A DNA stretch of 36,475 nucleotides from positions 1 through 36,475 of the IMG/VR virus record IMGVR_UViG_3300025070_000106. One strand, written 5' to 3'. The DNA is from a virus. Below, piece by piece: positions 1-36,475 of the stretch (position 1 is the stretch's first letter; each line of letters opens with the position of its first letter). The position numbers and the translations under genes are program-made. A model generated the notes under the pieces. That model saw only the letters and a program-made list of their open reading frames with translations. It was not told the DNA's origin and ran no database searches.

Positions 1-93
1 GTTTGCAGGTACGGTGTACACATTCGTCTTGTTAGTATTACCTAACGCAACTACCTCTGTACGAAACTTAGAACCCGATTGTAATACTGGCAT
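1..93 (-). CDS. Partial gene, probable virion protein (N-terminal 31 codons)
   Basis: An open frame starts at an ATG on the minus strand (CAT at 91-93), inside the last codons of the upstream SET-domain gene, and runs off the window edge. It reads MPVLQSGSKFRTEVVALG and ends ...YTVPAN. The short overlap with the gene before it and the AGTAGAG just upstream of the ATG fit translational coupling in this minus-strand operon. The style (VVALGNTN, YTVPAN) recalls small marine phage structural proteins, but too little is visible to name a family. Confidence 0.55.
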   Translation of the reverse strand, partial: MPVLQSGSKFRTEVVALGNTNKTNVYTVPAN

Positions 94-442
94 CTCTACT
101 TTCCCAATACTGCTTTCCGTAATCGTGCAGTATTTCTTCGCCCTGTTTTATTTCTTTAAGTGCAAAAAATCTAACAAAGCGTTCGTCTTTGTCATCTATT
201 TCCCATTCTGCATTTGGGGGGTCGCCATGATTATACACCATGCCTAAACCTAGTACGACCATAAAGTCCGTGTCGCCTTCATACGCAGACTGAAACATGT
301 AGTTGTGAAGTATACATTCATCAGCTACCTCATCTTCAGAGACAAACAAATAAGGACACAACTCTATTGTATCGTCTTGAGCATAGTCCTTATCTGCGAA
401 AACTCCGTGACCGTGTAAATCTGAATCCTGTATGTAAGGCAT
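68..442 (-). CDS. SET-domain protein, putative lysine methyltransferase
   Basis: This 124-residue protein shows the ordered SET motifs. Residues 10-13 are HGHG in a HGHGVFADKDY context (cofactor-binding GxG strand), residues 70-77 are YNHGDPPN (the NHS-type motif), and residues 101-109 are GEEILHDYG, with Y108 at the usual catalytic tyrosine position. SET enzymes transfer methyl groups from S-adenosylmethionine to lysine side chains. The protein is close to a minimal SET core, with no visible pre- or post-SET zinc cysteines. Its ATG overlaps the stop of the upstream Lys-rich gene (TAATG) and its 3' end overlaps the next gene, so it sits in a coupled operon. The substrate is unknown. The lysine-rich peptide encoded immediately upstream is an obvious candidate, by inference only. 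Confidence 0.8.
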   Translation of the reverse strand: MPYIQDSDLHGHGVFADKDYAQDDTIELCPYLFVSEDEVADECILHNYMFQSAYEGDTDFMVVLGLGMVYNHGDPPNAEWEIDDKDERFVRFFALKEIKQGEEILHDYGKQYWESRDASITIGF

Positions 443-579
443 TACTTCTTCTTTTTAGCCATGCCCCCACGCATCATCTTCTTCTTCTTGGCCATCTTAG
501 CCATACCGCCACCACGCATCTTGGTCATTCCACCGCCACGCATTTTCTTCTTAGCCATTTTAGCTTTACCCATTGCCAT
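442..579 (-). CDS. Small Lys/Met/Gly/Arg repeat protein (KMRGGG motifs)
   Basis: A 45-residue protein built almost only from K, M, G, R and A. It contains three copies of a (K/M)MRGG(G)M unit separated by lysine runs such as AKKKMRGGGM and MAKKKK. It lies between two genes that overlap it by 14 nt upstream and 1 nt downstream (TAATG with the SET gene), which supports real translation. The same kind of motif appears in the protein at 1349-1702 and near the N-terminus of the 748-residue virion protein (MAKGGVVKMREGGF). Peptides like this are, from memory, common in marine phages and have no assigned function. The high positive charge would allow nucleic acid binding, and the lysines could be substrates of the neighbouring SET protein; both are inference. 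Confidence 0.7.
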   Translation of the reverse strand: MAMGKAKMAKKKMRGGGMTKMRGGGMAKMAKKKKMMRGGMAKKKK

Positions 580-1096
580 TGCGCAATCTCCTTCTGTCAA
601 GAACTAAGGCTTCATAAACATCATCTGGAAAGTGTTCGTAGTAATTGGACTTTTCCAGATACAAAGCTGCATCGTCCAGTTTGGATAACAACTGTACAAA
701 GACCATGCAGTAAGATAAGCTGTCATCTGTAACCCCGTCATCGACAAGGAAGTCAAGTCCAGCCTCTGTTGCATCGTAGTTGGGGTGAAACACCATCAGG
801 TGTAAATCAATACCAGCTACGGATGCTAACTCATTGATGCCATCACAGTAACCGTCTAGGTATTCTATGTCTGGCAAATTCTCTTCTGCCCACACTACAA
901 TCTCGTAGTCATGGTCGCTGAATGTACGGACTTGTTCCATAAGTCCATCCAGCCCTGTGTTTATGCTAAAGACCACCTTGTCATCAGCCCATGCCTTTCT
1001 GGCATAGGGGCAGGGCGGTAGACCATTCAGTTTCGCATTAGGTACTTCTAAGAAATCATTGGACCACTTGCGAATGTCCTGTTCAATCTTATGCAC
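566..1096 (-). CDS. Conserved hypothetical protein, weak DUF1415-like motifs
   Basis: An acidic protein of about 176 residues. Two stretches resemble the bacterial DUF1415 family: LNGLPPCPYARKAW near the N-terminus (family LNLCPFA-type motif) and MVFHPNYDATEAG in the middle (family FHPDY motif). No function is established for that family. I chose GTG at 1096 because it gives an 8-nt overlap with the preceding HNH-like gene and has GGA 6 nt upstream. A TTG at 1132 with AGG upstream would add 12 residues and overlap more. The C-terminus overlaps the start of the Lys-rich peptide gene. The family link is by eye and uncertain. Confidence 0.6.
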   Translation of the reverse strand: MHKIEQDIRKWSNDFLEVPNAKLNGLPPCPYARKAWADDKVVFSINTGLDGLMEQVRTFSDHDYEIVVWAEENLPDIEYLDGYCDGINELASVAGIDLHLMVFHPNYDATEAGLDFLVDDGVTDDSLSYCMVFVQLLSKLDDAALYLEKSNYYEHFPDDVYEALVLDRRRLRNGNG

Positions 1097-1349
1097 GTCT
1101 ATTCCGTTTACCTGCAGTCTTAGTTCTAGCAAAAGACCTATTCTGTGATGGCCGTTGCAGTGTTAGATTACCCCGCCTATTGTCACGAGGGTTCCCATTC
1201 TTGTGCGCTATATCCTTACCAGCAGTATTTACTCCAGCCTTCTTAACAGTTCTACGTGCTTGATTACGTGCAGCACGATTAACCTTCTGCTGTGGCTTGC
1301 TTTGGTAATTAGCGTATTCTTTTTTATAATTGCGGGGGCGGGGTGCCAT
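1089..1349 (-). CDS. Small basic HNH-like protein
   Basis: 86 residues, very rich in Arg, Lys and Asn. The segment KDIAHKNGNPRDNRRGNL (residues 45-62), followed by SQNRSFARTKTAGKR, resembles the core of small phage HNH proteins, where the usual pattern is D-H-x-D/N-G-N-P-x-D-N-R-x-x-N-L. Here the first acidic residue before the His is Ala (IAH48-49 instead of DH), so nuclease activity is uncertain. Similar basic proteins with an RNYKKEY start occur in marine T7-like phages, often near packaging or structural genes. Its ATG overlaps the stop of the upstream gene (TAATG). Confidence 0.6.
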   Translation of the reverse strand: MAPRPRNYKKEYANYQSKPQQKVNRAARNQARRTVKKAGVNTAGKDIAHKNGNPRDNRRGNLTLQRPSQNRSFARTKTAGKRNRRA

Positions 1350-1702
1350 TACTTACCTGTAATTTTATTGTAGGCTTGCATGCCCTTTGGCCCACTAGCT
1401 TTCAATGCTTTAAGGCCGGGGTTCTCAGTTACGCTACCACCAGCAGCATACATGTGCATTTTACCATTAGCCATACCACCGCGCATCATCTGTGCTTTCT
1501 TTGCCATGCCACCACGGGCCTTACTTTGTGGCTTTTTAGTTGCTTGCTTTTTAGTTTCAGAATCTGTAGATTCAAAACCACCAGTACGGTCACGTTCAGT
1601 AACTTCACTGTAGGCTTCCAAAATCTTGTTAGCTTTTTTAATTTCCGCTTTACTATAGTCATCGGGATTTCTAGTAATCTTGTATGCTTCTGCTGGGGTC
1701 AT
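1349..1702 (-). CDS. Hypothetical protein with KMRGGM-type motif
   Basis: 117 residues. The N-terminal half is charged and probably helical (SKAEIKKANKILEAYSEV). The middle is Lys/Gln-rich. The C-terminal third carries ARGGMAKKAQMMRGGMANGK followed by an Ala/Gly stretch and GPKGMQAYNKITGK. The RGGM repeat links it to the 45-residue peptide at 442-579 in the same operon. No family recognised. Start is the ATG at 1702; the stop shares bases with the next ATG. Confidence 0.65.
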   Translation of the reverse strand: MTPAEAYKITRNPDDYSKAEIKKANKILEAYSEVTERDRTGGFESTDSETKKQATKKPQSKARGGMAKKAQMMRGGMANGKMHMYAAGGSVTENPGLKALKASGPKGMQAYNKITGK

Positions 1703-4198: not shown

Positions 4199-4597
4199 AT
4201 GTCTAAGCAAGCTATCAATGTAAATGTTAATGTTGGCTATTGGTTCCAAGGTTCTGGCCTGACTGGTCAGAATTTGTCTGAACATAACGAGAATAAGTTT
4301 CAGCGGGTGGCTACCAAGTACAAGCGCAAGACTGGCAACAAGTTGTCCAAGATGCGTTGTTACCGTGCCAGCAGGGTGGGTGCGCGTAAACTCAAGGATG
4401 AGTTTGGCACACGTATTCTGTCCAATTCCATCACAACATTCGAGATGCTTTTGACGGGTATCGACAAGACGTTGGATCGCAAGAACCACAATGTCGATCT
4501 TGGTGAGTTCAATGTTGCTGACATTGCCGATCTGGCATGTGCGCCAACAGGTGCATCAGCACATAAGACTGACCGCAAGCGCGTCATTATGTTTTGA
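4199..4597 (+). CDS. Hypothetical protein, first gene of the rightward early operon
   Basis: 132 residues, basic in the first half (ATKYKRKTGNKLSKMRCYRASRVGARKL) and more acidic near the end. I do not recognise a family. The start is ATG 4199, with GAGGTG 7 nt upstream; an in-frame GTG at 4190 overlaps that ribosome site and is unlikely. Being first after the control region, it would be among the earliest genes expressed, where phages often place host-takeover proteins. Confidence 0.65.
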   Translation: MSKQAINVNVNVGYWFQGSGLTGQNLSEHNENKFQRVATKYKRKTGNKLSKMRCYRASRVGARKLKDEFGTRILSNSITTFEMLLTGIDKTLDRKNHNVDLGEFNVADIADLACAPTGASAHKTDRKRVIMF

Positions 4598-4603
4598 CTT
4601 CGT

Positions 4604-4639
4604 GGGGGTAATGCTCTATCCGTAGGGCATTGCTCCCCC
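4604..4639 (+). promoter_or_regulatory. Strong intergenic hairpin
   Basis: GGGGG (4604-4608) pairs with CCCCC (4635-4639), and AATGCTC (4610-4616) with GGGCATT (4625-4631), giving 12 bp with a small internal loop. No T-run follows, so a processing or attenuation element is more likely than a simple terminator. Confidence 0.5.
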
Positions 4640-4666
4640 TAACCATACCAACCAAGGGTGATTACT

Positions 4667-7710: not shown

Positions 7711-8129
7711 TGTTTGCAGAAGCACTTGTATGCTTGGCACTGAACATCTACCATGAGGCCCGTGACCAGCCCTTCATTGGGCAGGTTGCGGTCGCCCAAG
7801 TGGTGATGAACAGAGTGTATGATGACAGGTATCCTGACAGTGTATGTGATGTGGTTAAGCAAGGCCCGACATACTCATGGAAGCAGGACTTCCCTGTACG
7901 CCATCGCTGTCAGTTTAGCTGGTACTGCGACGGTAAGTCAGACAAGACCCCTGACCAGACGGCATGGCAGCAAGCTATGTTGATTGCACAGGGTGTACAC
8001 ACAGGCAACCTTGATGACTTCGTTGAGGGTGCGACACACTACCATGCAACCTATGTTCTGCCTGAGTGGGCAGAAAGCAAGACACCTGTCGTACAGATAG
8101 GTGACCACGTATTCTATCGCTGGGATTAG
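7710..8129 (+). CDS. SleB-type cell wall hydrolase (endolysin)
   Basis: 139 residues matching the Hydrolase_2/SleB family over nearly its whole length. LALNIYHEARDQ (residues 9-20) contains E16, the likely catalytic acid. It is followed by GQVAVAQVVMNRV, YPDSVCDVV and CQFSWYCDGK (67-76). These enzymes cleave the glycan chain of peptidoglycan. There is no clear cleavable signal peptide, so release by a holin is expected; a candidate (29953-30153) lies in the late region. Sitting in the early strand, away from that holin, is a little unusual. The start is ATG 7710 rather than the upstream in-frame start at 7680, which overlaps the previous gene. Confidence 0.85.
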   Translation: MFAEALVCLALNIYHEARDQPFIGQVAVAQVVMNRVYDDRYPDSVCDVVKQGPTYSWKQDFPVRHRCQFSWYCDGKSDKTPDQTAWQQAMLIAQGVHTGNLDDFVEGATHYHATYVLPEWAESKTPVVQIGDHVFYRWD

Positions 8130-8132
8130 TGC

Positions 8133-8161
8133 TTGACTGTGCGCAGTCTTTGTGATACAAC
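8133..8161 (+). promoter_or_regulatory. Possible promoter with extended -10
   Basis: TTGACT (8133-8138), 17-bp spacer, TACAAC (8156-8161) preceded by TGA, which gives an extended -10. The first box matches 5 of 6 and the second 4 of 6. A short hairpin GACTG/CAGTC (8135-8148) overlaps the -35 box and spacer. It lies in the 68-nt gap after the endolysin gene. Confidence 0.4.
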
Positions 8162-8197
8162 GTAACTCTCAGTTGCCAATGGAAGGAGTGAATTATC

Positions 8198-8365
8198 ATG
8201 GGAAGATGGGGATATTTCAAGACGACTAAACACTTAGGAAAAGGAGCCGCATGGAGTGGCGGTGACGGTAACAAGCAAAGACATCAGATGCACGTAAGGC
8301 GTTTGAAATTTGCCAAGATGAAGGAAGCTATTGAAGCACGAAAGGAGAAGCAATCATGCCGTTAG
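8198..8365 (+). CDS. Small basic hypothetical protein
   Basis: 55 residues, MGRWGYFKTTKHLGKGAAW..., then a basic helix (RRLKFAKMKEAIEARKEK). GGAAGGAG lies about 9 nt before the ATG. It overlaps the DUF932 gene start by 10 nt. No family recognised. Confidence 0.6.
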   Translation: MGRWGYFKTTKHLGKGAAWSGGDGNKQRHQMHVRRLKFAKMKEAIEARKEKQSCR

Positions 8366-9213
8366 ACACACATATGTTTACAGCAGAGGAACTGCTGCCA
8401 GAGAACCTCAACTTTCCTGTTGAGTACGAACCTACTAAAGTAGATGACAAGAAGTATGTCATCAACGGTAACACAGGTGAATATCTTGCTGTGGTTGGTA
8501 GTAGCTTTAACACTGCTAATCATGGTACATTCTTCACCGATGTACACAACGCCATCACAGAGAACTTGGGGCCAGAAGAATGCGAGAGCATGAATATCCG
8601 CTGGAAGTCTGCGCACAACAATGCGTGGGCTATGATGGACATGTCACTGCCAGAGGTGACTGCGCGTATTGAGTCCGACAAGCACAGCACCACGATTGCA
8701 CAGCGTATCATTGCCCTGCGTGGGGTGGATGGTACTGCTTCCAATCAGGTGTACTTCGGTGCTATCGACTTCTTCTGCACTAACGGTATGATTACCGGAG
8801 AGTATGACGACATCAAGCGCAGAAACACTAGCGGCTTCAACATGCCAGCCTTTATCAGTGACCTGAAGGGTTCTACACAATCGTTCTACGCACAGTCTGA
8901 ACGTCTTCAGCGGTTCGCAAACAAGACATTGTATGTCGGAGATGTGAAAGCCATGCTGGAATCTCTGTTCAAATCAGACCGGACGGCAGAGAAGATGCTT
9001 ACTCTATACAATCAAGAGGCTGCTACCCGTGGGCAGAATGCTTGGGCATTATACAGTGCCTTCACGAACTACTCAAGCTGGGCAGATGAGCGTAACGGGT
9101 TCAGTGTCAAGAACACTGGCAAGGATACCAACGCTGTCACTATGTTCCGTCGTGAGAATCAGGCTGCACAGTGGGTGAACAGCACAGAGTTCAAGGAGTT
9201 ACTGGCAGCATGA
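8356..9213 (+). CDS. DUF932 family protein
   Basis: 285 residues resembling the phage/plasmid-like DUF932 family: a strand-rich N-terminal half (EYLAVVGSSFNTANHGTFF), a middle IDFFCTNGMITGEY, and helices near the C-terminus (AWALYSAFTNYSSWADER). The family is widespread on phages and plasmids. Its role is not established, though it is often found near recombination genes. GGAG lies 8 nt before the ATG. Confidence 0.7.
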   Translation: MPLDTHMFTAEELLPENLNFPVEYEPTKVDDKKYVINGNTGEYLAVVGSSFNTANHGTFFTDVHNAITENLGPEECESMNIRWKSAHNNAWAMMDMSLPEVTARIESDKHSTTIAQRIIALRGVDGTASNQVYFGAIDFFCTNGMITGEYDDIKRRNTSGFNMPAFISDLKGSTQSFYAQSERLQRFANKTLYVGDVKAMLESLFKSDRTAEKMLTLYNQEAATRGQNAWALYSAFTNYSSWADERNGFSVKNTGKDTNAVTMFRRENQAAQWVNSTEFKELLAA

Positions 9214-9674
9214 GTAATACAGATGACAGGGAATACCCTACGTTGTGGTCTTGCATTTGGTACAAAGAAGGCAGTGCGTTTTTTTCCAGATGGGAAGTCA
9301 TTGAGAATATAGAGCAACACCTTGACAATCATCACCCAGACTCAAAGTTCAGGTGGTGGTTCTTCTGGCTGTATCTCGATATTAGGGACTTCTTTATACA
9401 CCTTGACTTGATTAATACTGGCAAGGGGCCGTACAAAAGCCTACATTCAGACGTAAGATGGGGGTATTGGGAATACGTATTTGTGTTTGGGATACGGAAT
9501 CCCATCATACGTATATGCTGGTCTGTGCTTGATTTCATCAAGTATAAAGTGTTGCGTATGCAATACATAGACCCCCACCTTGGTTGCTATAGCTACCCAA
9601 ATTGTGACGAGTCCCCTATGGGCTGTCGTCATGTGATGGGTGACGATGCTGAACCATATGGCCACAGAGACTAG
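9210..9674 (+). CDS. Hypothetical aromatic-rich protein
   Basis: 154 residues, very rich in Trp, Tyr and Phe (RWWFFWLYLDIRDFFIHLD; RICWSVLDFIKYKV), with four cysteines in the C-terminal half. Aromatic amphipathic stretches may associate with membranes. No family recognised. ATG 9210 overlaps the previous stop (ATGA). Confidence 0.55.
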   Translation: MSNTDDREYPTLWSCIWYKEGSAFFSRWEVIENIEQHLDNHHPDSKFRWWFFWLYLDIRDFFIHLDLINTGKGPYKSLHSDVRWGYWEYVFVFGIRNPIIRICWSVLDFIKYKVLRMQYIDPHLGCYSYPNCDESPMGCRHVMGDDAEPYGHRD

Positions 9675-9683
9675 GAGAATCAC

Positions 9684-10562
9684 ATGAAGACAGTTGAAGA
9701 CTTAGTATTGACATACTATTCTTCCAACGATTTCAGTATGTTGAGGGACAAGTCTAAGAAGGACTATCAATACTTCCTCAACATATTGGTCGGTGAGTTT
9801 GGGTCTGTTGCGTATGACAAGTTGTCGAGCAAGCAAGCCAAACACGCATACGAAGAATGGGTGAAGCGTGGCATCACGTTTGCCAATCATGTATGCACTG
9901 TGTCGTCGTTGCTGTATCGCTACGCCATCGACATGGAGTATGCTATGGTGAATCCATTTGCCAACATCAAACGTAAGACTGCACCACAACGTAAGGTAGT
10001 GTGGTCAGAAGACAACGTGCGTCAATTCCTTGACACTGCCTATGGTCAGTTTGAGTGGCGCAGCCTTGGCCTGATTATTCACATGGCATACGAGTGGTGC
10101 CAGCGACTGGGTGACATGCGTCTACTGCAGTGGGACAACCTCGACATGGTTGAACGCAAGCTGTACCTTGAGCAGAGCAAGCGCAGGGCAGAGGTGTGCC
10201 TTCCAATCGAAGATGACCTGTACGAGATGCTTGTTCAGCAGCAGGAAGACTTTGGCTTTCAAGCCTATGTGGCACCCCGTGTGTTGCCTGTTGGTGGTAA
10301 GTATCATCCATACAGCTTAGAGCGTCTCAGCAAGGCTGGACGGGCTGTTATGAGGCAAGCTAATCTGCCAGAGGAGTTGCGTCTGATGGACTTACGTAGG
10401 ACAGGCACGACACAGATGGTCGAGGCTGGTGTCCCTATGGGACAAATCATGTCTGTGACTGGACACAGTAACCCGCAGTCGGTGAAACCTTACATGAGAA
10501 ATACATATGCCAGTGCAAATAGTGCATTGACAGCACGAAAATCGCATGGTAAAAGCACCTAA
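9684..10562 (+). CDS. int: Tyrosine recombinase (integrase)
   Basis: 292 residues with the two-domain layout of tyrosine recombinases. The N-terminal SAM-like part (about 1-95) binds core sites. The catalytic part has R141 (WCQRLGDMR), R238 in DLRRTG, H261 in TGHSN and the nucleophile Y270 (VKPYMRNT). The His three residues before R238 in many members is Met here, a change I have seen in other phage integrases. It would catalyse site-specific strand exchange, either integration or dimer resolution. TAGGAG lies 8 nt before the ATG. It sits directly before the replication genes in the same direction, an odd place for a lysogeny gene. No repressor or attP is evident. Confidence 0.85.
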   Translation: MKTVEDLVLTYYSSNDFSMLRDKSKKDYQYFLNILVGEFGSVAYDKLSSKQAKHAYEEWVKRGITFANHVCTVSSLLYRYAIDMEYAMVNPFANIKRKTAPQRKVVWSEDNVRQFLDTAYGQFEWRSLGLIIHMAYEWCQRLGDMRLLQWDNLDMVERKLYLEQSKRRAEVCLPIEDDLYEMLVQQQEDFGFQAYVAPRVLPVGGKYHPYSLERLSKAGRAVMRQANLPEELRLMDLRRTGTTQMVEAGVPMGQIMSVTGHSNPQSVKPYMRNTYASANSALTARKSHGKST

Positions 10563-10588
10563 CTGCCGCAAAGGAAAGTGATATATAC

Positions 10589-11356
10589 ATGGATAATATA
10601 TATAACATTGTAAGTGATATGGACGTACCCGTAGGTATGACCAAGCGTGTTGCTTGTCCTAACTGTGGAGAGAAAACCTTCACGGTGACAAACAACATGG
10701 GTTCGCTTGTATGGAATTGCTATCGTGCATCTTGTGGTGTGAAGGGTGGGACACGTGTTCGTATGAGTGCCGATGATATTCGTGCTGGCTTTGCCGGTGC
10801 CGATGACTTCGCCAAGCAGGACACGTTCAAGCTGCCTGACTACATCGTGCCGCATGACTGGAACGTGGCAGAGATTGCATGGGAGTTATATGAGTTGGAT
10901 GCAGAGCAGCTTGGCCTTATGTATGACGTGAAGGAACACCGCATGGTATTCCCCATCGTACATGACGGCAAGATTGTGGATGCTACCGGACGCTCATTGG
11001 GTAAGCGATTACCTAAATGGAAACGATATGGAAAAAGCGGCTTGCCATACACATCAGGGTGTGGTAAAGTCGCCGTAGTTGTTGAGGACTGCTTGAGTGC
11101 AGCCGTTGTTGGTTACGGCACCTTTGTCGGGGTTGCGCTTCTAGGCACGTCATTGCAAGAGACGCATAAAGGGTATCTCTCGCAGTTCTCAACAGCAATC
11201 ATTGCGCTAGACCCCGATGCGCTGCCGAAGACTTTGATTATGGCAAAGGAATTACGAGGGCATGTCAACGATGTTCGTGTCCTCAGACTAACCGACGACT
11301 TGAAATATCGTAACCCGACAGATATGGAGAACCTTCATGGAATTATCAATAATTAG
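10589..11356 (+). CDS. DNA primase (zinc finger and TOPRIM)
   Basis: 255 residues resembling the primase half of T7 gp4. A zinc ribbon uses C23, C26, C44 and C49 (CPNC...CYRASC). The TOPRIM core follows: E166 in VVVEDCLSA and the DPD motif (D208, D210 in ALDPDALPK). It would make RNA primers for lagging-strand synthesis. The helicase is a separate gene overlapping its 3' end by 20 nt, whereas T7 fuses the two. AAGGAAAG precedes the ATG. Confidence 0.85.
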   Translation: MDNIYNIVSDMDVPVGMTKRVACPNCGEKTFTVTNNMGSLVWNCYRASCGVKGGTRVRMSADDIRAGFAGADDFAKQDTFKLPDYIVPHDWNVAEIAWELYELDAEQLGLMYDVKEHRMVFPIVHDGKIVDATGRSLGKRLPKWKRYGKSGLPYTSGCGKVAVVVEDCLSAAVVGYGTFVGVALLGTSLQETHKGYLSQFSTAIIALDPDALPKTLIMAKELRGHVNDVRVLRLTDDLKYRNPTDMENLHGIINN

Positions 11357-12560
11357 GAGCCTGATGGACAAGTCATTCTATGATGACCATCGTGGCTCTA
11401 AGTGTCCGCAGCGTTTGTTCAGTAAGGACGTGCGGAAAATCAAGCAGTCGATTGACGCTGCTATGGACAGGTACGAGCGTAGTGTTACGCCAGATGAGAT
11501 AGAAGCCCTGTTCATGTCAGACAACCCGACACTAACTACTGCGCAGAAGCAGGGGTATTCATCACTCTTCTCGCAGATTAAACGTGAAGACCCTATGGGC
11601 AGTGACGTAGCACAAGAGGTGTTGTCCAAGCTGTTCCAACAGGTAGTGGGTGAGGACGTAGCTAACATTGGCTTTGATATGGTCAATGGTGATGCGGCCA
11701 GCCTTGAGTCTCTGCGTAACTTACTTGAGCGTTACGGGGATGACTTCATTCCTAATCTCAACATTGAGTGGGATGACATCACCATTGAGACACTCATGGC
11801 TAAAGCTGAACTGGAAGCACGTTGGACATTCAACATACCAAGTGTGACACGTAAGGTAGAGGGTGTGTCTGGTGGCCAGCTTATCGAAGTTGGCGCACGG
11901 CCTAACACTGGCAAGACATCCTTCCATGCCAGCTTGATTGCTGCACCGGGCGGGTTCGCACATCAGGGTGCCAAGTGCATCATCCTGTGTAACGAGGAGC
12001 CGACACACCGTGTTGGTGCCAGATACTTGACTGCTGCCGCTGGCATGACAGCCCGTGAAGTACGGGACAATATGTCAAAGGCACAGGCACTGTATCAGCC
12101 GGTGATGAATAACATCAAGATTAAGGAAGCGGGTGGTCGTGACATGGCATGGGTTGAGTCCGTATGCAAGTCTTATAAGCCTGATGTCCTTGTGCTTGAC
12201 ATGGGTGATAAGTTTGGCGTGCAGGGTTCCTTTGCACGACAGGACGAAGCACTCAAGGCATGTGCTATCTATGCACGGCAGATTGCCAAGACCTATGACT
12301 GTGCTGTGTTCTACATGTCTCAGCTATCGGCAGAGGCAGAAGGCCGCGCGCAGTTGAACCAGAGCATGATGGAAGGTAGCCGGACAGGTAAGGCTGCGGA
12401 AGCTGACCTGATGATACTGATTGGTAAGTCACCAACAGTCGAGGGTCAGGAAGAAGACAGTCCACTGCGGCACATCAACATTGTAAAGAACAAGTTGAAT
12501 GGCTGGCATGGTATGGTAAACTGTGAACTCAACTATCAGACAGCGAGGTACGAAGGATGA
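11337..12560 (+). CDS. Replicative DNA helicase (DnaB/RecA fold)
   Basis: 407 residues. The RecA-like motor has Walker A GARPNTGKT (186-194, K193), Walker B VLVLDMGD (284-291, D288), and the later VKNKLNGW segment typical of DnaB-like helicases. The N-terminal 150 residues would handle oligomerisation or primase contact. An alternative start, ATG 11364 with TAGGAG upstream, would remove 9 residues and avoid the overlap with the primase; I kept 11337, which has GGAG 8 nt upstream. It works with the primase and polymerase at the fork. Its stop overlaps the polymerase ATG. Confidence 0.85.
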   Translation: MELSIIRSLMDKSFYDDHRGSKCPQRLFSKDVRKIKQSIDAAMDRYERSVTPDEIEALFMSDNPTLTTAQKQGYSSLFSQIKREDPMGSDVAQEVLSKLFQQVVGEDVANIGFDMVNGDAASLESLRNLLERYGDDFIPNLNIEWDDITIETLMAKAELEARWTFNIPSVTRKVEGVSGGQLIEVGARPNTGKTSFHASLIAAPGGFAHQGAKCIILCNEEPTHRVGARYLTAAAGMTAREVRDNMSKAQALYQPVMNNIKIKEAGGRDMAWVESVCKSYKPDVLVLDMGDKFGVQGSFARQDEALKACAIYARQIAKTYDCAVFYMSQLSAEAEGRAQLNQSMMEGSRTGKAAEADLMILIGKSPTVEGQEEDSPLRHINIVKNKLNGWHGMVNCELNYQTARYEG

Positions 12561-14599
12561 AGCTAACACTTGATGTAGAGAATACTGTCACCAAGCGTGA
12601 TGGTAAGACACACCTTGACCCGTTTGAGCCTGACAACTCACTGACTATGGTGGGAATGCTGAGTGACATGGGTGAAGAGTGTATCGCCACCTTTGACCAC
12701 AGTGATGTACCAGCAGATGCTTATGGACATACTATGGTGCAGGAATACCTAGACAAAGCTACCATACTCATCATGCACAACGCAGCACACGACTTGTTGT
12801 GGCTGTGGGAATCAGGCTTCAAGTATGATGGCCCTGTGTTTGATACGATGCTGGCAGAGTACGTCATGCAGCGTGGACAGAAGGAGCCACTGTCTCTTGA
12901 AGCATGTGCAGAGCGTTACGAGTTGGACACTAAGAAGCAGGACACACTTAAGGAGTACTTCGCCAAGGGATATAGCACACGTGACATACCTTGGGAAGAA
13001 TTGACTATGTACCTATCGGCTGACTTACACGCTACGCAGCAACTATCTGACAAGCTAATGCTTCGCCTTAATAGTAAGGAAGACAGCGGCTTGCGTGGTA
13101 CTGTTGACCTGACTAATGAAGTTGCTGTGTGCCTCTCACGTATCTATCAGCGTGGCTTCAGTGTGGATATAGCCAAGCTAGATGAGGTGCGTCAAGAGTT
13201 TGAACAGGAGAAGCGTCAACTTATTGACAGTCTACAGAAGCATGTTCGTACTCTGATGGGTGACACACCTATCAACCTGAACAGCCCAGAGCAATTGTCA
13301 TGGGTTGTGTATGGACGCAAGGTATTGGACAAGCAGTACTGGGGCAACGCTATTGACCCATACATGTCTGAGCCTGACTTCCGCAGTCTCATTGCTGGTG
13401 GTACAGAGCGTCTGTATAAGACCAAAGCAACACAGTGCCGTGAGTGCAATGGCTCCGGCCAAGTAAGAAAGGTAAAGAAAGATGGAACACCATTTGCCCG
13501 TACTAATAAATGTACATCATGTGGTGGGGCTGGTTATCATCTTGTGGCTGGTAAAGAATTGGCTGGACTGAAGTTCAAGCCACCCTCTGCCAAGTGGGCA
13601 AGTGCTAACGGCTTCAGTACAAGCAAGCAGAACCTTGAGACACTTGAGGGTGCCGCACGAGCCAAGGGTATGGACGATGCAGTAGACTTCTTGTCCAAGG
13701 TACGTAGGCTATCTGCTGTGGATACCTACCTGTCATCCTTTGTTGATGGCATTCGTATGCACACCAAGCAAGACGGCAAGCTGCATGTCCGTCTTACACA
13801 GCACATGACCGCTACCGGAAGGTTCAGTGGTCGTGACCCTAACATGCAGAACATGCCACGTGGTGGCACCTTCCCCGTGAAGAAGGTATTTGTGTCACGG
13901 TTTAACGGCGGTAAGATTATGGAAGCTGACTTTGCACAGCTTGAGTTTCGTGCCGCTGCATACTTATCACAGGATGGAGTTGCAATTGAGGAAGTGTCTA
14001 CTGGATTTGATGTACACTCATACACCGCTGAAGTTATTACCGATGCTGGTCAGCCTACGGACAGACAGACTGCGAAAGCGCATACATTCGCGCCGTTATA
14101 TGGAGCGACTGGCTTTGGAAGAACACCAGCGGAAGCTGAATACTACACACACTTCACGCAGAAATACCAAGGCGTGGCCGATTGGCACTCCCGACTGGCT
14201 AAAGAAGCTATAGCCACGGGCAAGATTACTACACCATCTGGCCGTGAGTTTGCCTTCCCTGATGTACGACGCAACAGTCGTGGCAGGGTCAGCAACTTCA
14301 CACAGATAAAGAACTACCCTGTGCAGTCGTTTGCTACCGCAGACATTGTGCCTTTGGCCCTGCTGCACATTGATAAACTACTTGACGGCATGCAATCATG
14401 TGTGGTAAACACTGTGCATGACTCAATCGTCATCGACATTCATCCAGACGAAGAAAGGAGAGTTATCAACATAATAGAAGAGACTAACAGAGTATTGCCT
14501 GACTTGATTACCTTACGTTGGGGGTTGGTATTCAATGTTCCTCTGGAACTAGAGGCAAAAATTGGCCCCAACTGGCTTGACACATACGATGTGTCGTGA
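12557..14599 (+). CDS. Family A DNA polymerase with inserted DnaJ-type zinc finger
   Basis: 680 residues. The N-terminus has a 3'-5' exonuclease (LDVENT with the DxE pair; HNAAHDLLW; FDTMLAEYV). Residues 294-326 are two CxxCxGxG repeats (CRECNGSG and CTSCGGAG; C294, C297, C319, C322), the DnaJ central-domain signature. The polymerase domain follows: TGRFSGRDPNMQNMPRG, motif A DFAQLEFR (D458), motif B RQTAKAHTFAPLYG, and motif C VHDSIVID (H621, D622). The zinc finger between exonuclease and polymerase was, as I recall, first noted in HMO-2011. Here it sits about where T7 polymerase has fingers-proximal insertions, and might bind DNA or a processivity partner. It starts with the ATG overlapping the helicase stop. 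Confidence 0.93.
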   Translation: MKLTLDVENTVTKRDGKTHLDPFEPDNSLTMVGMLSDMGEECIATFDHSDVPADAYGHTMVQEYLDKATILIMHNAAHDLLWLWESGFKYDGPVFDTMLAEYVMQRGQKEPLSLEACAERYELDTKKQDTLKEYFAKGYSTRDIPWEELTMYLSADLHATQQLSDKLMLRLNSKEDSGLRGTVDLTNEVAVCLSRIYQRGFSVDIAKLDEVRQEFEQEKRQLIDSLQKHVRTLMGDTPINLNSPEQLSWVVYGRKVLDKQYWGNAIDPYMSEPDFRSLIAGGTERLYKTKATQCRECNGSGQVRKVKKDGTPFARTNKCTSCGGAGYHLVAGKELAGLKFKPPSAKWASANGFSTSKQNLETLEGAARAKGMDDAVDFLSKVRRLSAVDTYLSSFVDGIRMHTKQDGKLHVRLTQHMTATGRFSGRDPNMQNMPRGGTFPVKKVFVSRFNGGKIMEADFAQLEFRAAAYLSQDGVAIEEVSTGFDVHSYTAEVITDAGQPTDRQTAKAHTFAPLYGATGFGRTPAEAEYYTHFTQKYQGVADWHSRLAKEAIATGKITTPSGREFAFPDVRRNSRGRVSNFTQIKNYPVQSFATADIVPLALLHIDKLLDGMQSCVVNTVHDSIVIDIHPDEERRVINIIEETNRVLPDLITLRWGLVFNVPLELEAKIGPNWLDTYDVS

Positions 14600-14641
14600 T
14601 ATAACTATGGATTCTAACTCGAAAGAAGGAGTATAAAACAC

Positions 14642-15535
14642 ATGGAACTAACAACCATTGACACTAACAATTACGCCGCAATGGCAAAGGCAATGGGCAT
14701 TGCCAACGAGACATCTAGTGAGCGTAAGCAAGCTAGTACTCTTGCCCGACTACGCATCAATCACTCACCTGTCATGGGTGAGGCAGAAGTAAATGGCAAG
14801 AACGTGAACATGGAAGTGGTCAGCGGTGGTACGTACAAGCTGGAAGTACCAGACGGACCTACATATTACGCAGAGTCGGTGAAGATTCGTCCGTATCTGC
14901 AACGCTTTATGTACAAGCGTTTTGTCCGTGGCATGGGTGATAGCCCTAACCGCTATGTCAAGACTGTCATGGCTGACAACCTGAACATTGACCTCAAGGA
15001 CAATGATGGTGGGTTCAACTGTGGTAAACCTGCTGGCTACATCCAAGACTTCAAGGCTCTGCCTGAGAAAACACAGGAACTCATCAAGCAGATTAAGCGT
15101 GTTCGTGTTGTGCTTGGCACTGTCGAACTGGTCAATGCCACAGACGCATCAGGCAATCCTGTGGACGTAGATGAGACTGCATTCATCTGGGAAGTAGAGA
15201 ACCGTGATGCGTTCAAGAACGTGGGTGGTGCCTTTACTCAACTCGCTAAGATGAAGCGACTGCCTGTGCAGCACATGATTACTGCGAATACAGAGGAGCG
15301 TAAGATTCCTACTGGTGCAGTCTTCTACCTGCCAATCGTGTCTCTTGACGTAACCAAGACCCTTGACCTTACAGACAAAGAACAGGGCATGTTTGGTGAC
15401 TTCATGCAGTGGGTCAACAACTACAACGAGTACATCATCAATGCATGGGCAGAGAAAGCTAACTCCCATGATGACGAGGATGATGAGGTTATCGTTGACG
15501 GCATCGTTGACATCGAAGTTGAAGAGGTAGCGTAA
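14642..15535 (+). CDS. Putative ssDNA-binding protein (acidic C-terminal tail)
   Basis: 297 residues, no named family. Two observations suggest a single-strand DNA-binding role like T7 gp2.5: the gene lies between polymerase and exonuclease, and the last 25 residues are highly acidic (SHDDEDDEVIVDGIVDIEVE), as in SSB tails that recruit partner proteins. The middle is strand-rich (VVLGTVELVNA, AVFYLPIVSLDV), compatible with an OB fold. AAGAAGGAG precedes ATG 14642. The next gene's ATG overlaps its stop. Confidence 0.55.
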   Translation: MELTTIDTNNYAAMAKAMGIANETSSERKQASTLARLRINHSPVMGEAEVNGKNVNMEVVSGGTYKLEVPDGPTYYAESVKIRPYLQRFMYKRFVRGMGDSPNRYVKTVMADNLNIDLKDNDGGFNCGKPAGYIQDFKALPEKTQELIKQIKRVRVVLGTVELVNATDASGNPVDVDETAFIWEVENRDAFKNVGGAFTQLAKMKRLPVQHMITANTEERKIPTGAVFYLPIVSLDVTKTLDLTDKEQGMFGDFMQWVNNYNEYIINAWAEKANSHDDEDDEVIVDGIVDIEVEEVA

Positions 15536-16425
15536 TGAACCACCCTGCTGAACTGGCTGTGCATCAATACATGGAGAACGCTGTTAAGGGTAAGTCCTCA
15601 ATGTCAGAGGATACCATTAAACAAGTAGGCCAAGATGTAATGAACGCACTTCAACGCCAGTTTGGTGGGGGTAACAAGCGAGATAAGTTTGGTCTACGTA
15701 TGTCAAACGTGGGTAGACCAACTTGTCAGCTTTGGTTTGAGAAGAACGAACCGGAGAAAGCGTTACCCTTTCCAACAACATTCGTAATGAACATGATGCT
15801 TGGAGATATCGTAGAGGCAGTCTTCAAGGGTCTTCTCAAAGAAGCAGGAGTACAGTATGAAGACGATGAAAAGGTTACTCTACAGCTTGATGACGATACA
15901 TCCATCACTGGCACCTATGATATTGTTATTGACGGTGCTGTTGATGATATTAAGTCAGCATCTAATTGGTCGTACACTAACAAGTTTGAATCCTTTGACA
16001 CTCTTAGACAGGGTGATGCTTTCGGGTATGTAGCACAGCTTGCTGGTTACGCCAAAGCATCAGGCAAACGTGCTGGTGGATGGTGGGTAGTTAACAAGGC
16101 AAACGGCGACTTCAAATATGTACCGGCTACAGGTATTGACGTTGATGCAGAAGTTGGCAAGATTAAAGACACAGCCGATACTATTGAAGAGAACAGGTTC
16201 GAGCGTTGCTTTGAGGCAGTTCCTGAGACATTCCGTGGTAAGCCTACAGGCAACACCGTGTTGGGTACTGAGTGTGGCTTCTGTCGTTACAAGTTCACAT
16301 GCTGGCCCGGACTGCAGGAACTACCTGCCGTTGCATCACAAGCCAAGCAACCTAAGACTGTCTCATACGTGTCACTTGCTGACGAGTATAAGGACAAGGA
16401 CTTCTTCAAGGGACGGGCAATGTAA
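15535..16425 (+). CDS. PD-(D/E)XK exonuclease with iron-sulfur-type cysteines (Cas4/RecB-like)
   Basis: 296 residues. Nuclease motifs: GDIVEAVFKG (motif I Glu), GTYDIVIDG (D129) and DDIKSAS (D138, K140), then QLAGYAKASG (the conserved Q...Y). Cysteines C64, C247, C250 and C256 follow the one-plus-three pattern that binds a 4Fe-4S cluster in Cas4 and AddB. Position between the SSB candidate and endonuclease I is that of the T7 gp6 exonuclease, so a role in recombination and host DNA breakdown is inferred. Starts at ATG 15535, overlapping the previous stop. Confidence 0.8.
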   Translation: MNHPAELAVHQYMENAVKGKSSMSEDTIKQVGQDVMNALQRQFGGGNKRDKFGLRMSNVGRPTCQLWFEKNEPEKALPFPTTFVMNMMLGDIVEAVFKGLLKEAGVQYEDDEKVTLQLDDDTSITGTYDIVIDGAVDDIKSASNWSYTNKFESFDTLRQGDAFGYVAQLAGYAKASGKRAGGWWVVNKANGDFKYVPATGIDVDAEVGKIKDTADTIEENRFERCFEAVPETFRGKPTGNTVLGTECGFCRYKFTCWPGLQELPAVASQAKQPKTVSYVSLADEYKDKDFFKGRAM

Positions 16426-27704: not shown

Positions 27705-29951
27705 CTACCCCCCTAAACCAAGCAGTCCACCTACAACACTGCTGCTACCTGCAGTGAGGAACGTACCAATAAGCTGACCAAAACCTAAAGACGAATTGTA
27801 ATCATTCATCATACTTTGAACATTAGCACTGCTATCTGCACGAAGCTGTTCAATAGCTAGATTAACGACACGACTACGTTCATTCTCTGCAGATGTCCAT
27901 GCCCACTCCATGCTGTCACCGTAATACTGCCACATGTTGTTGTAGGCTTGGTTTGATATACCTAACAAAGCATTGGCATTAAGTTCGTTAGCACGGTTGA
28001 TAGCAGCAGTATCTGCTGTAGCCACCTGTCTGCGCCACTGAGCATTGCTCTGGTCAATGACAAGGCGGTTCTGTGCATTGAACTGGTCACGCTGGTTATT
28101 CAACTCTGCGTTAAATCGTTCTACTGTATTACGCTGCCCTGCATTATATTGTGCCTGTGCATTAGCCTGTGTACTATTATACTGAGATACATTGTTAGCC
28201 AAGTCAGCAAAGAACTGGTCAACTTGATTCTGTGAACTTGCATTAAACTGACGTGATGCATTTTCTGCAGCTTGGTCAGTAAAAAGTGATTGAATACGTT
28301 GCTGCGCTTTGAAGATATCTGTCTGCTGCTGGTTAGACAGGTTAGCCATATCCATCTGCATGAAGTTCTGAGCATTCATTGCAGCAGCTTGCTGTCTGTT
28401 TCCTAAGTTAGCCATGTCAAGATTAGACAATGCTGCAGCCTCTGCCATCACAAGAGCCTGATTGTTGCTGAGATTGGCAAGGTTCATGCTGTTAGCAATA
28501 CGGCTGTTTTCCAAAGCAACCTGTTGTTCAGCAGTAAAGTTCATATTGGCAATGTCACCAATACGAGCAGCGTTGGCTACACGGGCTTGGAAGGTTTGGT
28601 CAAACTCCTGACCCATAAACTGCGCACGTTGTTGTGCTGCAAGCATAGTACGCTGCTGTCTATTGGACAAGTTCTGCTGTTCAAACTGTGCAAAGATACT
28701 AGCGTCTGCTTGTGCAACAGGTAGTGCAGACTCCATAGCAGCCTGTACAATGGCCTGACCGGCAATGCTGGAGGCACCTAGCCCACGTGCAGACATAGCC
28801 TGTGTAGCGGCTCTCATGGCCCCTGCAGCCCATGCTGGTGTTTCACCACCCTCAAACTGCTGCATCAAGCCATCAAGCTGCCCTTGCACTGTAGCTTGCT
28901 TAGAAGGTGTGGCTTCTGCTGCTTGTACCTGCTCTGTAAACTGCGCTGCAGTCTGTGCATTAGCAGCACCAGATACAAGTTCTCCATCCTGTATCTGTCT
29001 TTGCACAGGATTATTTATGAGGACCGCATTACCCTGCGCTGCATTTACGTCACCTACAGAAGAGGCAGTCTGCTGTGCTGCTAATACCTGTGCTTCAGGG
29101 CTTACTGCACCCTGTGCTGCTTGCGTGGCATTGATAGCTGTATTTACAGCAGGTGCAGCCTGTGCTGCTTGCATCACGTTAGCTTCAGACTCCTGCGGTG
29201 CCTGTGCATATGAGGTAGTAGCCATAGCTGTAGGAACAGCGACATTGCCTGTTACCTGACCACTGTAGGGGCTAACCATCTGACGTGGGTCTATCGTAGT
29301 GCCTTGCGCAGTTACTGCAGCACCTGTTGGTAGTCCGGGTGTTTGCATCATCTGTGCTGATACATCAGCGACAGTCGGAGCAACCTCCTCCGTAATCACG
29401 GTGCCTTGGTCATCAGTGATAGGCTTCATGTAATTAGGGTTAGCTGTTTCACCATCAGAAAGAAACTCGTTAGTGTCCAGCTTTGGCTTAGTTACTTTTT
29501 TAAACTCTTGTGTAGGCACATAAGCCTGACGCAATGCCGGATTAGGGACAGCAGGTGCGGGACTATAACTAGCTTGAGATGCTATAGTCTCACCGCTGGG
29601 ACGTGGTGTAACTTGTGGTATGCCACTAAAACCGGGTGCTGCTTGCAACTGCATCTGGTTCTGTGCTTGTGCCAGCGTACCGGGGGCAAACTGGCTCTGC
29701 TGGAAAGGTGCTCCCATTTTAGTTACAGCACCGGGAAGAACCTGTGCAGGGCTAGAAAAACCCCCCTCACGCATCTTCACCACACCACCCTTTGCCATCT
29801 GCACAGCAGCATTAGTGAACTGCTGCATACGTGCTTGACGTGCAGGGTCTTGCTCAATGTAGTTCTGAAACTCGCCCATGTTGCCAGTATAGCCCATGCT
29901 CTTGGCGATTTTGTTCATCGCTTCTGGTTTGAATGCCTTGAATACAGCCAT
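27705..29951 (-). CDS. Large Gln/Asn/Ala-rich virion protein
   Basis: 748 residues. Residues about 45-60 carry QMAKGGVVKMREGGF, related to the RGG peptides of the left operon. A Pro/Gln/Ala-rich first half is followed at about 465-640 by imperfect repeats built on ANLSNxQQ (SMNLANLSNNQALVM; DMANLGNRQQAAAMNAQ; DMANLSNQQQTDIF), with very high Asn and Gln. The C-terminal end is glycine-rich and hydrophobic (IGTFLTAGSSSVVGGLLGLGG), like a membrane-active segment. A tail or ejection role, for example a channel across the envelope, is inferred. No enzyme motif seen. Confidence 0.65.
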   Translation of the reverse strand: MAVFKAFKPEAMNKIAKSMGYTGNMGEFQNYIEQDPARQARMQQFTNAAVQMAKGGVVKMREGGFSSPAQVLPGAVTKMGAPFQQSQFAPGTLAQAQNQMQLQAAPGFSGIPQVTPRPSGETIASQASYSPAPAVPNPALRQAYVPTQEFKKVTKPKLDTNEFLSDGETANPNYMKPITDDQGTVITEEVAPTVADVSAQMMQTPGLPTGAAVTAQGTTIDPRQMVSPYSGQVTGNVAVPTAMATTSYAQAPQESEANVMQAAQAAPAVNTAINATQAAQGAVSPEAQVLAAQQTASSVGDVNAAQGNAVLINNPVQRQIQDGELVSGAANAQTAAQFTEQVQAAEATPSKQATVQGQLDGLMQQFEGGETPAWAAGAMRAATQAMSARGLGASSIAGQAIVQAAMESALPVAQADASIFAQFEQQNLSNRQQRTMLAAQQRAQFMGQEFDQTFQARVANAARIGDIANMNFTAEQQVALENSRIANSMNLANLSNNQALVMAEAAALSNLDMANLGNRQQAAAMNAQNFMQMDMANLSNQQQTDIFKAQQRIQSLFTDQAAENASRQFNASSQNQVDQFFADLANNVSQYNSTQANAQAQYNAGQRNTVERFNAELNNQRDQFNAQNRLVIDQSNAQWRRQVATADTAAINRANELNANALLGISNQAYNNMWQYYGDSMEWAWTSAENERSRVVNLAIEQLRADSSANVQSMMNDYNSSLGFGQLIGTFLTAGSSSVVGGLLGLGG

Positions 29952-31788: not shown

Positions 31789-32189
31789 TATGCGAGGTCT
31801 CCTGCTGCCATTGCGTATACTTGGTCACGGTCAAGGTTACTGCCGCCTTGTGGGTAGTAAGCACTACACCTGAGAACAGATGTAGTTTGAGAACCCCCTG
31901 TTATAGAACCAAACACATCATTAGAACCCGTATTAGCAACAGCAGAATAATTAGCATTGCCCATTGCATTTGTTAAATTTCCAGAATAATCACCTGTTCC
32001 GTTATCTGTGAAAGATGCAACATTAAAACTATCTAGGCCGCCAATAGTGCCGCTGCCATCTAGCTTAAACCATACCTTAACCAGCCCCTGCTGCAAATTC
32101 GTTGTGGTTGAGTTGCCCTCGCCTGTCACCGCAATAGAGCCAGCCGTGGCTACCCCTGTGATTGTATCTACTTTGAGTATGCTTGCCAT
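31788..32189 (-). CDS. GDLA-cassette tail protein, paralog 2
   Basis: 133 residues from ATG 32189, beginning MASILKVDTITGVATAG. It carries KVWFKLDG in place of KAW, the core DSFNVASFTDNGTGDYS with NAMGNANYSA, and ends AAGDLA. The LKVDTI start is common in marine phage tail proteins. An upstream in-frame start would lie inside the junction repeat and is rejected. Confidence 0.65.
   Translation of the reverse strand: MASILKVDTITGVATAGSIAVTGEGNSTTTNLQQGLVKVWFKLDGSGTIGGLDSFNVASFTDNGTGDYSGNLTNAMGNANYSAVANTGSNDVFGSITGGSQTTSVLRCSAYYPQGGSNLDRDQVYAMAAGDLA
31790..31802 (-). repeat. Cassette junction repeat, copy 2
   Basis: Same 13 bases, read as GDLA of paralog 2, followed by TAATG, the start of paralog 1. 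Confidence 0.8.
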
Positions 32190-32551
32190 TATGCGAGGTC
32201 TCCATGAATTGTAACGCAATGACTTGTATCATCGTTGGACCCCGCATCAGAAAGTTCTACGGCAATAGTAGAAGCGGAATACCTTGCAGTGTTTTGTGTG
32301 AGATTCCGTCGTTGGTCAGTGCTGGATGCCATGCCTGACTGTGAGTAATCATTATTAACCATAGCATTAGTAAAACTGTAACTATAATCACCTGTTCCGT
32401 GGTCGGTTCCACTGCCAACATTAAAAGAATCAGTTGTTCCCGCTGTAGTAGTGCCATACAGCCACGCCTTCCCCGCATGTTGCTTCGTCAGCCCTACCGG
32501 CCCCGTACCCGCCTTGTCAGCAATCGTGTCTACATTCAATACGCTGGTCAT
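32189..32551 (-). CDS. GDLA-cassette tail protein, paralog 3
   Basis: 120 residues from ATG 32551 (GGAG upstream), MTSVLNVDTIADKAG, then HAGKAWLYG, the core DSFNVGSGTDHGTGDYS with NAMVNNDYS, and IHGDLA at the end. Its 3' 167 nt are almost identical to the partial gene at 36307. The ATG overlaps the upstream stop as ATGA. Confidence 0.7.
   Translation of the reverse strand: MTSVLNVDTIADKAGTGPVGLTKQHAGKAWLYGTTTAGTTDSFNVGSGTDHGTGDYSYSFTNAMVNNDYSQSGMASSTDQRRNLTQNTARYSASTIAVELSDAGSNDDTSHCVTIHGDLA
32191..32203 (-). repeat. Cassette junction repeat, copy 3
   Basis: Same 13 bases at the end of paralog 3, followed by TAATG of paralog 2. Confidence 0.8.
32191..32357 (-). repeat. Near-identical duplication (with 36309-36475)
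   Basis: 167 nt match 36309-36475 with four differences, while the other paralogs share only short motifs. This points to a recent duplication or gene conversion between cassettes 4.1 kb apart. The second copy may extend beyond the window. Confidence 0.85.
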
Positions 32552-33006
32552 ACGATGCTCCAATATCCGTTGACAGTGACGGTGGCACTCTGCGTAATCG
32601 GCCCTGCCGACACACCGTTCTCGTCGCTGTCAATCGTGATGTCTGCGCTGATGGTCTGACCGTTCAAGCGGATGATGCTGTTGTTGCCCTTGAATGGGTA
32701 GCGTGTGTCAGCCTCAGTCTTTGTGTAGGCATTGTTCACAGAGAACACATCGTACACGACCATCTCAACTGTATCATTCAGGCTGGCCCCAGTTACCAAC
32801 ACAACCGTCGTGCCTGTTGTGGCTGTGTAGTCCGTGCCGGGTACGAGAAGCACACCGTTCTGGTACACATCCATGTACAGGCTGTCTGAGTAGTTCAGGA
32901 CACCACTGCTGGCATCACTGCCGCTGAATGATGTCTGACCGGCAGTGGCCTGATACTGGTAGCGGTTACGAACACCGGCTGATGGGGATTTACCTATGTA
33001 TGGCAT
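32548..33006 (-). CDS. Tail-fibre connector-like structural protein
   Basis: 152 residues. MPYIGKSPSAGVRNRYQYQATAGQT and the following VDVYQNGVLL-type block are widespread in marine phages as the N-terminal part of fibre proteins (here VYQNGVLLVPGTDYTATTG). The end (DITIDSDENGVSAGPI) is strand-rich. Likely attaches a fibre to the tail or forms its shaft. Confidence 0.65.
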   Translation of the reverse strand: MPYIGKSPSAGVRNRYQYQATAGQTSFSGSDASSGVLNYSDSLYMDVYQNGVLLVPGTDYTATTGTTVVLVTGASLNDTVEMVVYDVFSVNNAYTKTEADTRYPFKGNNSIIRLNGQTISADITIDSDENGVSAGPITQSATVTVNGYWSIV

Positions 33007-36310: not shown

Positions 36311-36475
36311 GCGAGGTCTCCATGAATTGTAACGCAGTGACTTGTATCATCGGCGGACCCCGCATCAGAAAGTTCTACGGCAATAGTAGAAGCGGAATAC
36401 CTTGCAGTGTTTTGTGTGAGATTCCGTCGTTGGTCAGTGCTGGATGCCATGCCTGACTGTGAGTAATCATCATTA
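36307..36475 (-). CDS. GDLA-cassette tail protein, paralog 5 (partial)
   Basis: The 3' part of another cassette gene; the start lies beyond the window. The visible 167 nt differ from the end of paralog 3 at only four positions, two of them changing an amino acid (N to A and N to D). It ends IHGDLA, and its TGA overlaps the ATG of the next gene. Confidence 0.7.
   Translation of the reverse strand, partial: NDDYSQSGMASSTDQRRNLTQNTARYSASTIAVELSDAGSADDTSHCVTIHGDLA
36309..36321 (-). repeat. Cassette junction repeat, copy 5
   Basis: Same 13 bases at the end of paralog 5; the stop overlaps the start of the 322-residue fibre gene as ATGA. Confidence 0.8.

Follow-up and report, generated by a model that had tools for sequence, protein, structure and literature searches.

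A predicted SET-domain methyltransferase gene overlapping a lysine-rich repeat peptide gene in an HMO-2011-like marine phage fragment

At one end of the window (the whole analysed stretch of 36,475 nucleotides, IMG/VR record IMGVR_UViG_3300025070_000106) a SET-domain gene begins inside the stop codon of another gene, whose product is a short, lysine-rich repeat peptide. Does the enzyme methylate the peptide whose gene it overlaps, or do the two stand together for another reason? The preliminary description took the pair for a writer with its own substrate. The reading tentatively preferred here, to which a probability of roughly 45% is given, is that the methyltransferase came from the host and has a host-type target; the peptide as substrate is the leading rival.

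The locus and its two overlapping genes

Positions 8001–16000 of the window, which span the integrase, primase, helicase and polymerase genes, were compared with HMO-2011 (73.3% DNA identity, 89% covered); the replication genes are of the HMO-2011 type, and by its sequence the window represents part of the genome of an HMO-2011-like marine phage (HMO-2011-type podovirus). HMO-2011 infects Puniceispirillum marinum (SAR116), and a SAR116 bacterium would be the host of the window phage as well.

The features are collected in Table 1. Along the minus strand the F188 gene comes first, followed by the K/M/R/G peptide gene, the SET gene and the 118/119-aa protein gene, and all four overlap with their neighbours. 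The peptide/SET junction is AAGTAATGCC; the start of the SET gene within the peptide stop codon was confirmed, its ATG using the last A of the TAA, and of 116 distinct SET genes 89 have the same TAATG at their start. The overlap is likely to couple translation of the two genes. The AGGAG sits 8 nt 5' of the peptide ATG. The F188 gene product is 76% identical to gp66 of HMO-2011, and its true start may lie downstream of the TTG given for it. The 118/119-aa gene product at the window edge begins MPVLQSGSKFRTEVV; for a relative of this family a phrog_1276 match was obtained (E 2.3e-5). In CRP-345 the same strand runs on into spanin, endolysin and terminase genes, and for this reason expression of the peptide/SET cassette is probably late.

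Table 1. Features of the SET locus in the window (positions from 1; all on the minus strand).
Feature	Positions	Strand	Basis or remark
Start of next gene, 118/119-aa family, PHROG_1276-like	1..93	-	leaves window; overlaps SET end
Predicted SET-domain protein-lysine methyltransferase gene, 124 aa	68..442	-	Pfam, fold model, motifs
TAATG stop/start overlap, peptide/SET	440..444	-	sequence
K/M/R/G repeat peptide gene, 45 aa, pI about 12	442..579	-	ORF and homologues
F188 upstream gene, phrog_28122	566..1132	-	phrog_28122, E 3.8e-73
AGGAG, ribosome-binding-like site, within end of F188 gene	588..592	-	motif match by reading
117-aa protein with RGGMAKK / MMRGGMANGK stretch	1349..1702	-	ORF, composition scan

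The peptide is composed of 15 K, 11 M, 9 G, 6 A, 3 R and 1 T, with zero acidic residues. Its run of K, M, R and G takes up 22 of 25 residues and lies beyond chance, since 200 mononucleotide shuffles of the 2.4 kb scanned gave at most 16; the reading frame is preserved in relatives across many in-frame repeat gains and losses, and the repeat peptide of the preliminary description is borne out. No known family was found for it in Pfam, PHROGs or NCBIfam, and tblastn of the peptide against phages gave no match, for which the low-complexity filter is probably the cause. Homologues stand behind the F188 gene in HMO-2011 (L098, about 4500–4650, between gp66 and gp65, MKGKTKMASKKMMRGG...MAKKKK) and in CRP-345 (gp77). 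Neither phage has SET at this place: in HMO-2011 a virion structural protein gene comes next, in CRP-345 other small genes. A core peptide gene of these phages is thus unannotated in the type phage HMO-2011. In loci L040, L044, L076, L067, L074, L079, L117, L317 and L324 the repeat peptide has varied non-repeat N-terminal extensions of about 20–90 residues, and the repeat looks like a tail on different small domains.

Related RGG motifs had also been pointed out in the 117-residue protein and in a large virion protein. The former holds (17 of 25 residues K/M/R/G); to judge from its sequence, this protein is a possible further SET substrate, and it is not tied to SET, because its homologue occurs in 53 of 69 SET-bearing and 44 of 66 SET-less loci with enough upstream DNA. 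The latter part of the remark is weak, because the protein at 27705–29951 (minus strand) has MAKGGVVKMREGG as its sole related stretch, below the composition threshold, and no significant Pfam or PHROG match.

The SET protein matched Pfam PF00856 over residues 11–109 (E 3.3e-12; 47.2 bits, cut-off 22.4) and covered the profile whole (positions 1–105 of 105). With a 12-sequence family profile the best solved relative was vSET of PBCV-1 (1n3j, E 3e-21). The AlphaFold model (56 related sequences) had pLDDT 87.7 and pTM 0.79; Foldseek gave TM 0.74/0.86 against vSET 3kma, and solely SET enzymes were found among the matches listed (50). Among 116 distinct SET genes, residues G13, N71, H72, P76, N77, Y108 and G109 were invariant and G11 was kept in 114; they comprise the GxG and NHxxxPN motifs of the SET SAM site and the catalytic tyrosine. 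By its median dN/dS of 0.13 (NG86; 348 pairs past filters, of 2500 drawn) the gene is under long-term purifying selection, and from motifs and fold model the protein is very probably an active methyltransferase.

The pI of the SET protein is 4.2, that of the peptide about 12. Charge complementarity was considered as evidence for the pair and was dropped: the acidity is no adaptation to the peptide, because the SETs of SAR116 bacteria have the same pI (4.24). Comparison of the specificity positions between phage and SAR116 SETs came down to position 43 alone and was uninformative. With tblastn in 50,697 phage records two matches only were obtained, identical-length uncultured phage assemblies at 33%. 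The SET protein encoded at L101 2501–2833 (LR756501, a 735-kb uncultured phage assembly, jumbo-phage-sized) is 33% identical to that of the window.

Joint and separate occurrence of the two genes

Relatives were sampled as the best 80 of 160, 260, 359, 278 and 295, and pattern-scan matches are those among the matches listed; because of this sampling the fractions below describe relatives close to the window and HMO-2011 and not nature at large. The SET-seeded set of 263 loci, many of them overlapping, was reduced to 146 unique SET genes; 21 of these with less than 400 nt upstream were left out, and 125 with at least 400 nt were counted. A peptide gene was found ahead of SET within 60 nt in 99, at 61–700 nt in 7 and not at all in 19; SET usually has the peptide with it (106 of 125), contrary to the outcome that the preliminary description had named as refuting, and the gene pair is conserved in its phage group. 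F188 lies upstream of all 106 peptide-linked SETs and of none of the 19 others, and in each of the 106 SET genes adjoining F188 the SET stands behind the peptide. In 7 SET-bearing loci another gene lies between peptide and SET, and SET is still retained. The arrangement is genuine, and many members of this phage group share it.

An earlier count had pointed to near-absolute pairing (96 of 104 within 60 nt, 7 further away, 1 without) and is ruled out by the 19 peptide-free SETs; the SET-seeded count was preferred because the earlier set mixed loci found via the peptide or a neighbour. The 19 belong to two other phage clades. Five of the peptide-free loci were read, and in all of them SET has helicase or DNA polymerase genes nearby. 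In L520 and L521 it is flanked by helicase and polymerase genes resembling the window's own (by-eye comparison); in L508, L515 and L519 its neighbours are helicase, primase or polymerase-like genes from other phages. The HMO-2011-like L520 and L521 (by SET sequence also L522–L524 and L533) appear to have a separately acquired SET, flanked by the genes for the replicative helicase and DNA polymerase; L508, L515, L519 and their relatives (L503–L518) belong to other types of phage and have a SAR116-like SET, replication-gene neighbours and no adjoining K/M/R/G peptide.

For the F188-seeded set, counted in the same way, a minimum of 1300 nt downstream was required, which removed 22 of 219 loci; the 197 unique loci left gave peptide and SET in 94, peptide alone in 100 and no detected peptide in 3. 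A stricter first peptide test had missed 12 loci, all with peptide-like ORFs by eye, and the relaxed test gave 194 of 197; of the remaining loci, L449 is apparently disrupted, and a shorter KRGG version is present in each of L290 and L302 (by eye, uncounted). The peptide is near-universal behind F188 and SET is accessory, because 194 of 197 loci have the peptide and 100 of them lack SET. When 30 SET-less records (some of 54–59 kb) were searched whole, SET was found elsewhere in none, with a model that recovers SET in 10 of 10 SET-bearing records; ten records of unlinked-SET or related phages had exactly one SET apiece. The KMRGGG motif was absent in 10 of 13 SET-bearing records of other phage groups, these records being fragmentary. 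The slot behind the peptide in SET-less loci is filled by the 118-aa family (49 of 91), a Rieske-type oxygenase (12 of 91) and others, and the window looks like the layout of peptide followed by 118-aa gene with SET inserted between.

A dedicated writer and substrate should come with no substrate gene lacking its writer and no writer lacking an adjoining substrate gene. Both were found, the first in 100 of 194 peptide loci and the second in 19 of 125 phage SETs and in the SAR116 SETs, so that neither gene needs the other adjoining. What stands of the pair as first described is a SET gene, catalytically intact-looking, that overlaps a lysine-rich peptide gene in an order kept wherever SET adjoins F188; what does not stand is its dedication. 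The enzyme may still have the peptide as its own substrate.

The type of peptide follows SET. The motif MMGGGM was found in 63 of 85 SET-bearing rows vs 0 of 96 SET-less rows and GKAKMAK in 70 of 85 vs 0 of 96, both motifs having been picked from the same data as were counted. The F188 tree requires SET to have been gained or lost 10 times, with no fewer than 5 of these changes on well-supported branches; over about 5 independent pairs MMGGGM agreed with SET in 4.6 and went against it in 0.0 on average, with p 0.0625, which cannot go lower with five independent pairs only. In two records (L520 in G122 and L523 in G125) SET lies in the replication module and a distant late locus has an MMGGGM peptide with no SET behind it; their F188 proteins fall near SET-bearing lineages and SET is distant, so that the peptide type is explicable by descent and not by linkage. 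The SET-bearing record G127 has a KMRGGG peptide also. L317 and L324 combine SET with the peptide type of SET-less loci, and the peptide of L117 is a mosaic, with the front of the SET-less type and the end of the SET-bearing type, which suggests exchange within the repeats. Relatedness together with linkage could lie behind the association of peptide type and SET.

Cellular relatives and the proposed target

The 12 best genome matches of the SET protein were SAR116/alphaproteobacterial MAGs and single cells (50–57% identity; next matches at most 42%), the unnamed Alphaproteobacteria among them being placed with SAR116; the closest cellular relatives of the phage SETs lie in the host group of the phages. 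These SETs are sister to the phage SETs and equal to them in length and motifs; they differ in being encoded by a solitary chromosomal gene with metabolic-gene neighbours, in two chromosomal contexts. One copy was found in 48 of 121 genomes of the SAR116 order, the peptide DNA motif in 0 of the 121, and no K/M/R/G peptide stands beside the chromosomal SETs. The chromosomal context gives no hint of the SET target.

The 30 rows of late-locus phage SETs cluster together in the SET tree (91/91), two further phage groups are separate (100/99 and 100/97), and phage and SAR116 rows are joined apart from other bacteria (91/98); at the root fork the branching order of the phage and SAR116 groups is not given by the tree. 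Judged from the tree alone, transfer would have run from host to phage, and SET was probably captured by SAR116 phages more than once. About three captures in different gene surroundings point to the host, and not the peptide, as what they have in common.

The preferred reading is built on these relatives. Phages of SAR116 bacteria would take the small SET gene from their hosts, probably repeatedly; in HMO-2011-type phages it would have been inserted in the late cluster (virion, lysis, packaging), behind the gene for the cationic repeat peptide, itself near-universal, and ahead of the next structural-like gene, and would be read via its stop/start overlap with the peptide gene. During infection the enzyme would go on methylating the type of protein that the chromosomal SAR116 enzyme modifies, either one of the host or one that host and phage share, and the fixed spot behind the peptide would come from insertion and exchange there, aided by the repetitive peptide DNA. 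Two results disfavour a host-type target: in all 106 F188-bearing SET loci SET follows the peptide despite the 10 changes on the F188 tree, a spot more fixed than pure chance placement would predict, and the peptide type tracks SET.

The same two results speak for the leading rival, according to which SET methylates lysines of the K/M/R/G peptide, perhaps also of other small basic late proteins, and methylation tunes the binding of the protamine-like peptide to a polyanion such as DNA, be it during assembly or packaging or within the virion. The TAATG overlap in most SET genes would match the levels of synthesis of enzyme and substrate; the retention of MMGGGM in the two records with distant SET, and of KMRGGG in G127, also favours it. 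We hold this to be somewhat doubtful, since more than half of the peptide loci are SET-less and the 30 such records searched are free of SET throughout, the chromosomal SAR116 SETs have no such peptide, most SET records of other groups lack KMRGGG (weak, the records being fragments), and L317 and L324 pair SET with the other peptide type; moreover, for the unlinked cases common descent may suffice, and the motifs were chosen on the data in which they were counted. A more far-reaching form, in which SAR116 phages methylate the KMRGGG repeats of their own protamine-like peptide and so tune late condensation of DNA/RNA, with peptide and enzyme co-evolving, is rated as unlikely; here a host-derived SET would be translationally coupled to the peptide, and phages with a moved or re-acquired SET would retain the matching peptide type.

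It is improbable that SET is a cargo functionally unconnected to the peptide and possibly of little benefit, placed by recombination in the peptide repeats and by selection for gene overlap. Many different genes do fill the slot behind the peptide in SET-less phages, and with exchange as in the chimeric L117 peptide SET and the linked half of the peptide would travel jointly; against this stand the long-term purifying selection with intact motifs, the repeated independent capture, the retention of SET in the 7 loci with a gene in between, and a peptide type that tracks SET also in two phages with SET elsewhere. That SET is catalytically dead and serves as a binding module or counter-defence protein is a general possibility only, and very improbable with SAM-site and catalytic residues kept in practically all 116 genes and a predicted fold matching active enzymes.

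Known systems and further observations

The bacteria that the window phage infects have no histones. The vSET of PBCV-1 (A612L, 1n3j/3kma; 119 aa) is likewise a short single-domain viral SET protein and has NHS..PNA and YG..YW.SR in common with the phage SET; it differs in sequence (about 30% identity) and in being a chlorovirus H3K27 methyltransferase, which acts on a histone of its eukaryotic host according to the title of Manzur et al. 2003, as cited in PMC4023394. The nearest published precedent for an enzyme with a small DNA-associated substrate in prokaryotes is, in the accessible part of PMC3980110, Go1-SET of Methanosarcina mazei, which methylates the DNA-binding protein MC1-alpha in vitro; that system is archaeal, its substrate is a folded DNA-binding protein and not a repeat peptide, and no coupled gene pair is claimed in that part of the source. 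Methylation of archaeal DNA-binding proteins, with a role unknown, is mentioned in the accessible part of PMC4023394. SET proteins of uncultured Caudovirales (e.g. A0A6J5L8Y2) are of similar size and fold and are already database entries; they differ in sequence (at most 33% identity), and no functional study or peptide partner was found for them.

A literature search gave no study of a phage SET methyltransferase, a search for HMO-2011 with "SET domain" gave no papers, and the words methyltransferase and lysine are absent from the main text of PMC9038755 on HMO-2011-type phages. The enzyme is of a known kind; its setting was not found described in the searchable literature, where phage protein-lysine methylation is nearly a blank. 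An abundant marine phage group now offers a large natural set with and without SET at one locus, a candidate substrate and a host homologue, so that target and purpose of phage protein methylation are directly testable.

Further small basic proteins are encoded in the late cluster, at window positions 1089–1349 and 1714–2046 and at L055 4467–4712 and 5642–5878; they match phrog_4590, 7595, 17747 and 14910 and are further candidate substrates. At the other end of the window, positions 36307–36474 encode a near-identical copy of part of the tail-like module ORF at 32189–32563 (SGMASSTDQRRNLTQNTARY...), the duplicated stretch being either a repeat or an assembly-end effect.
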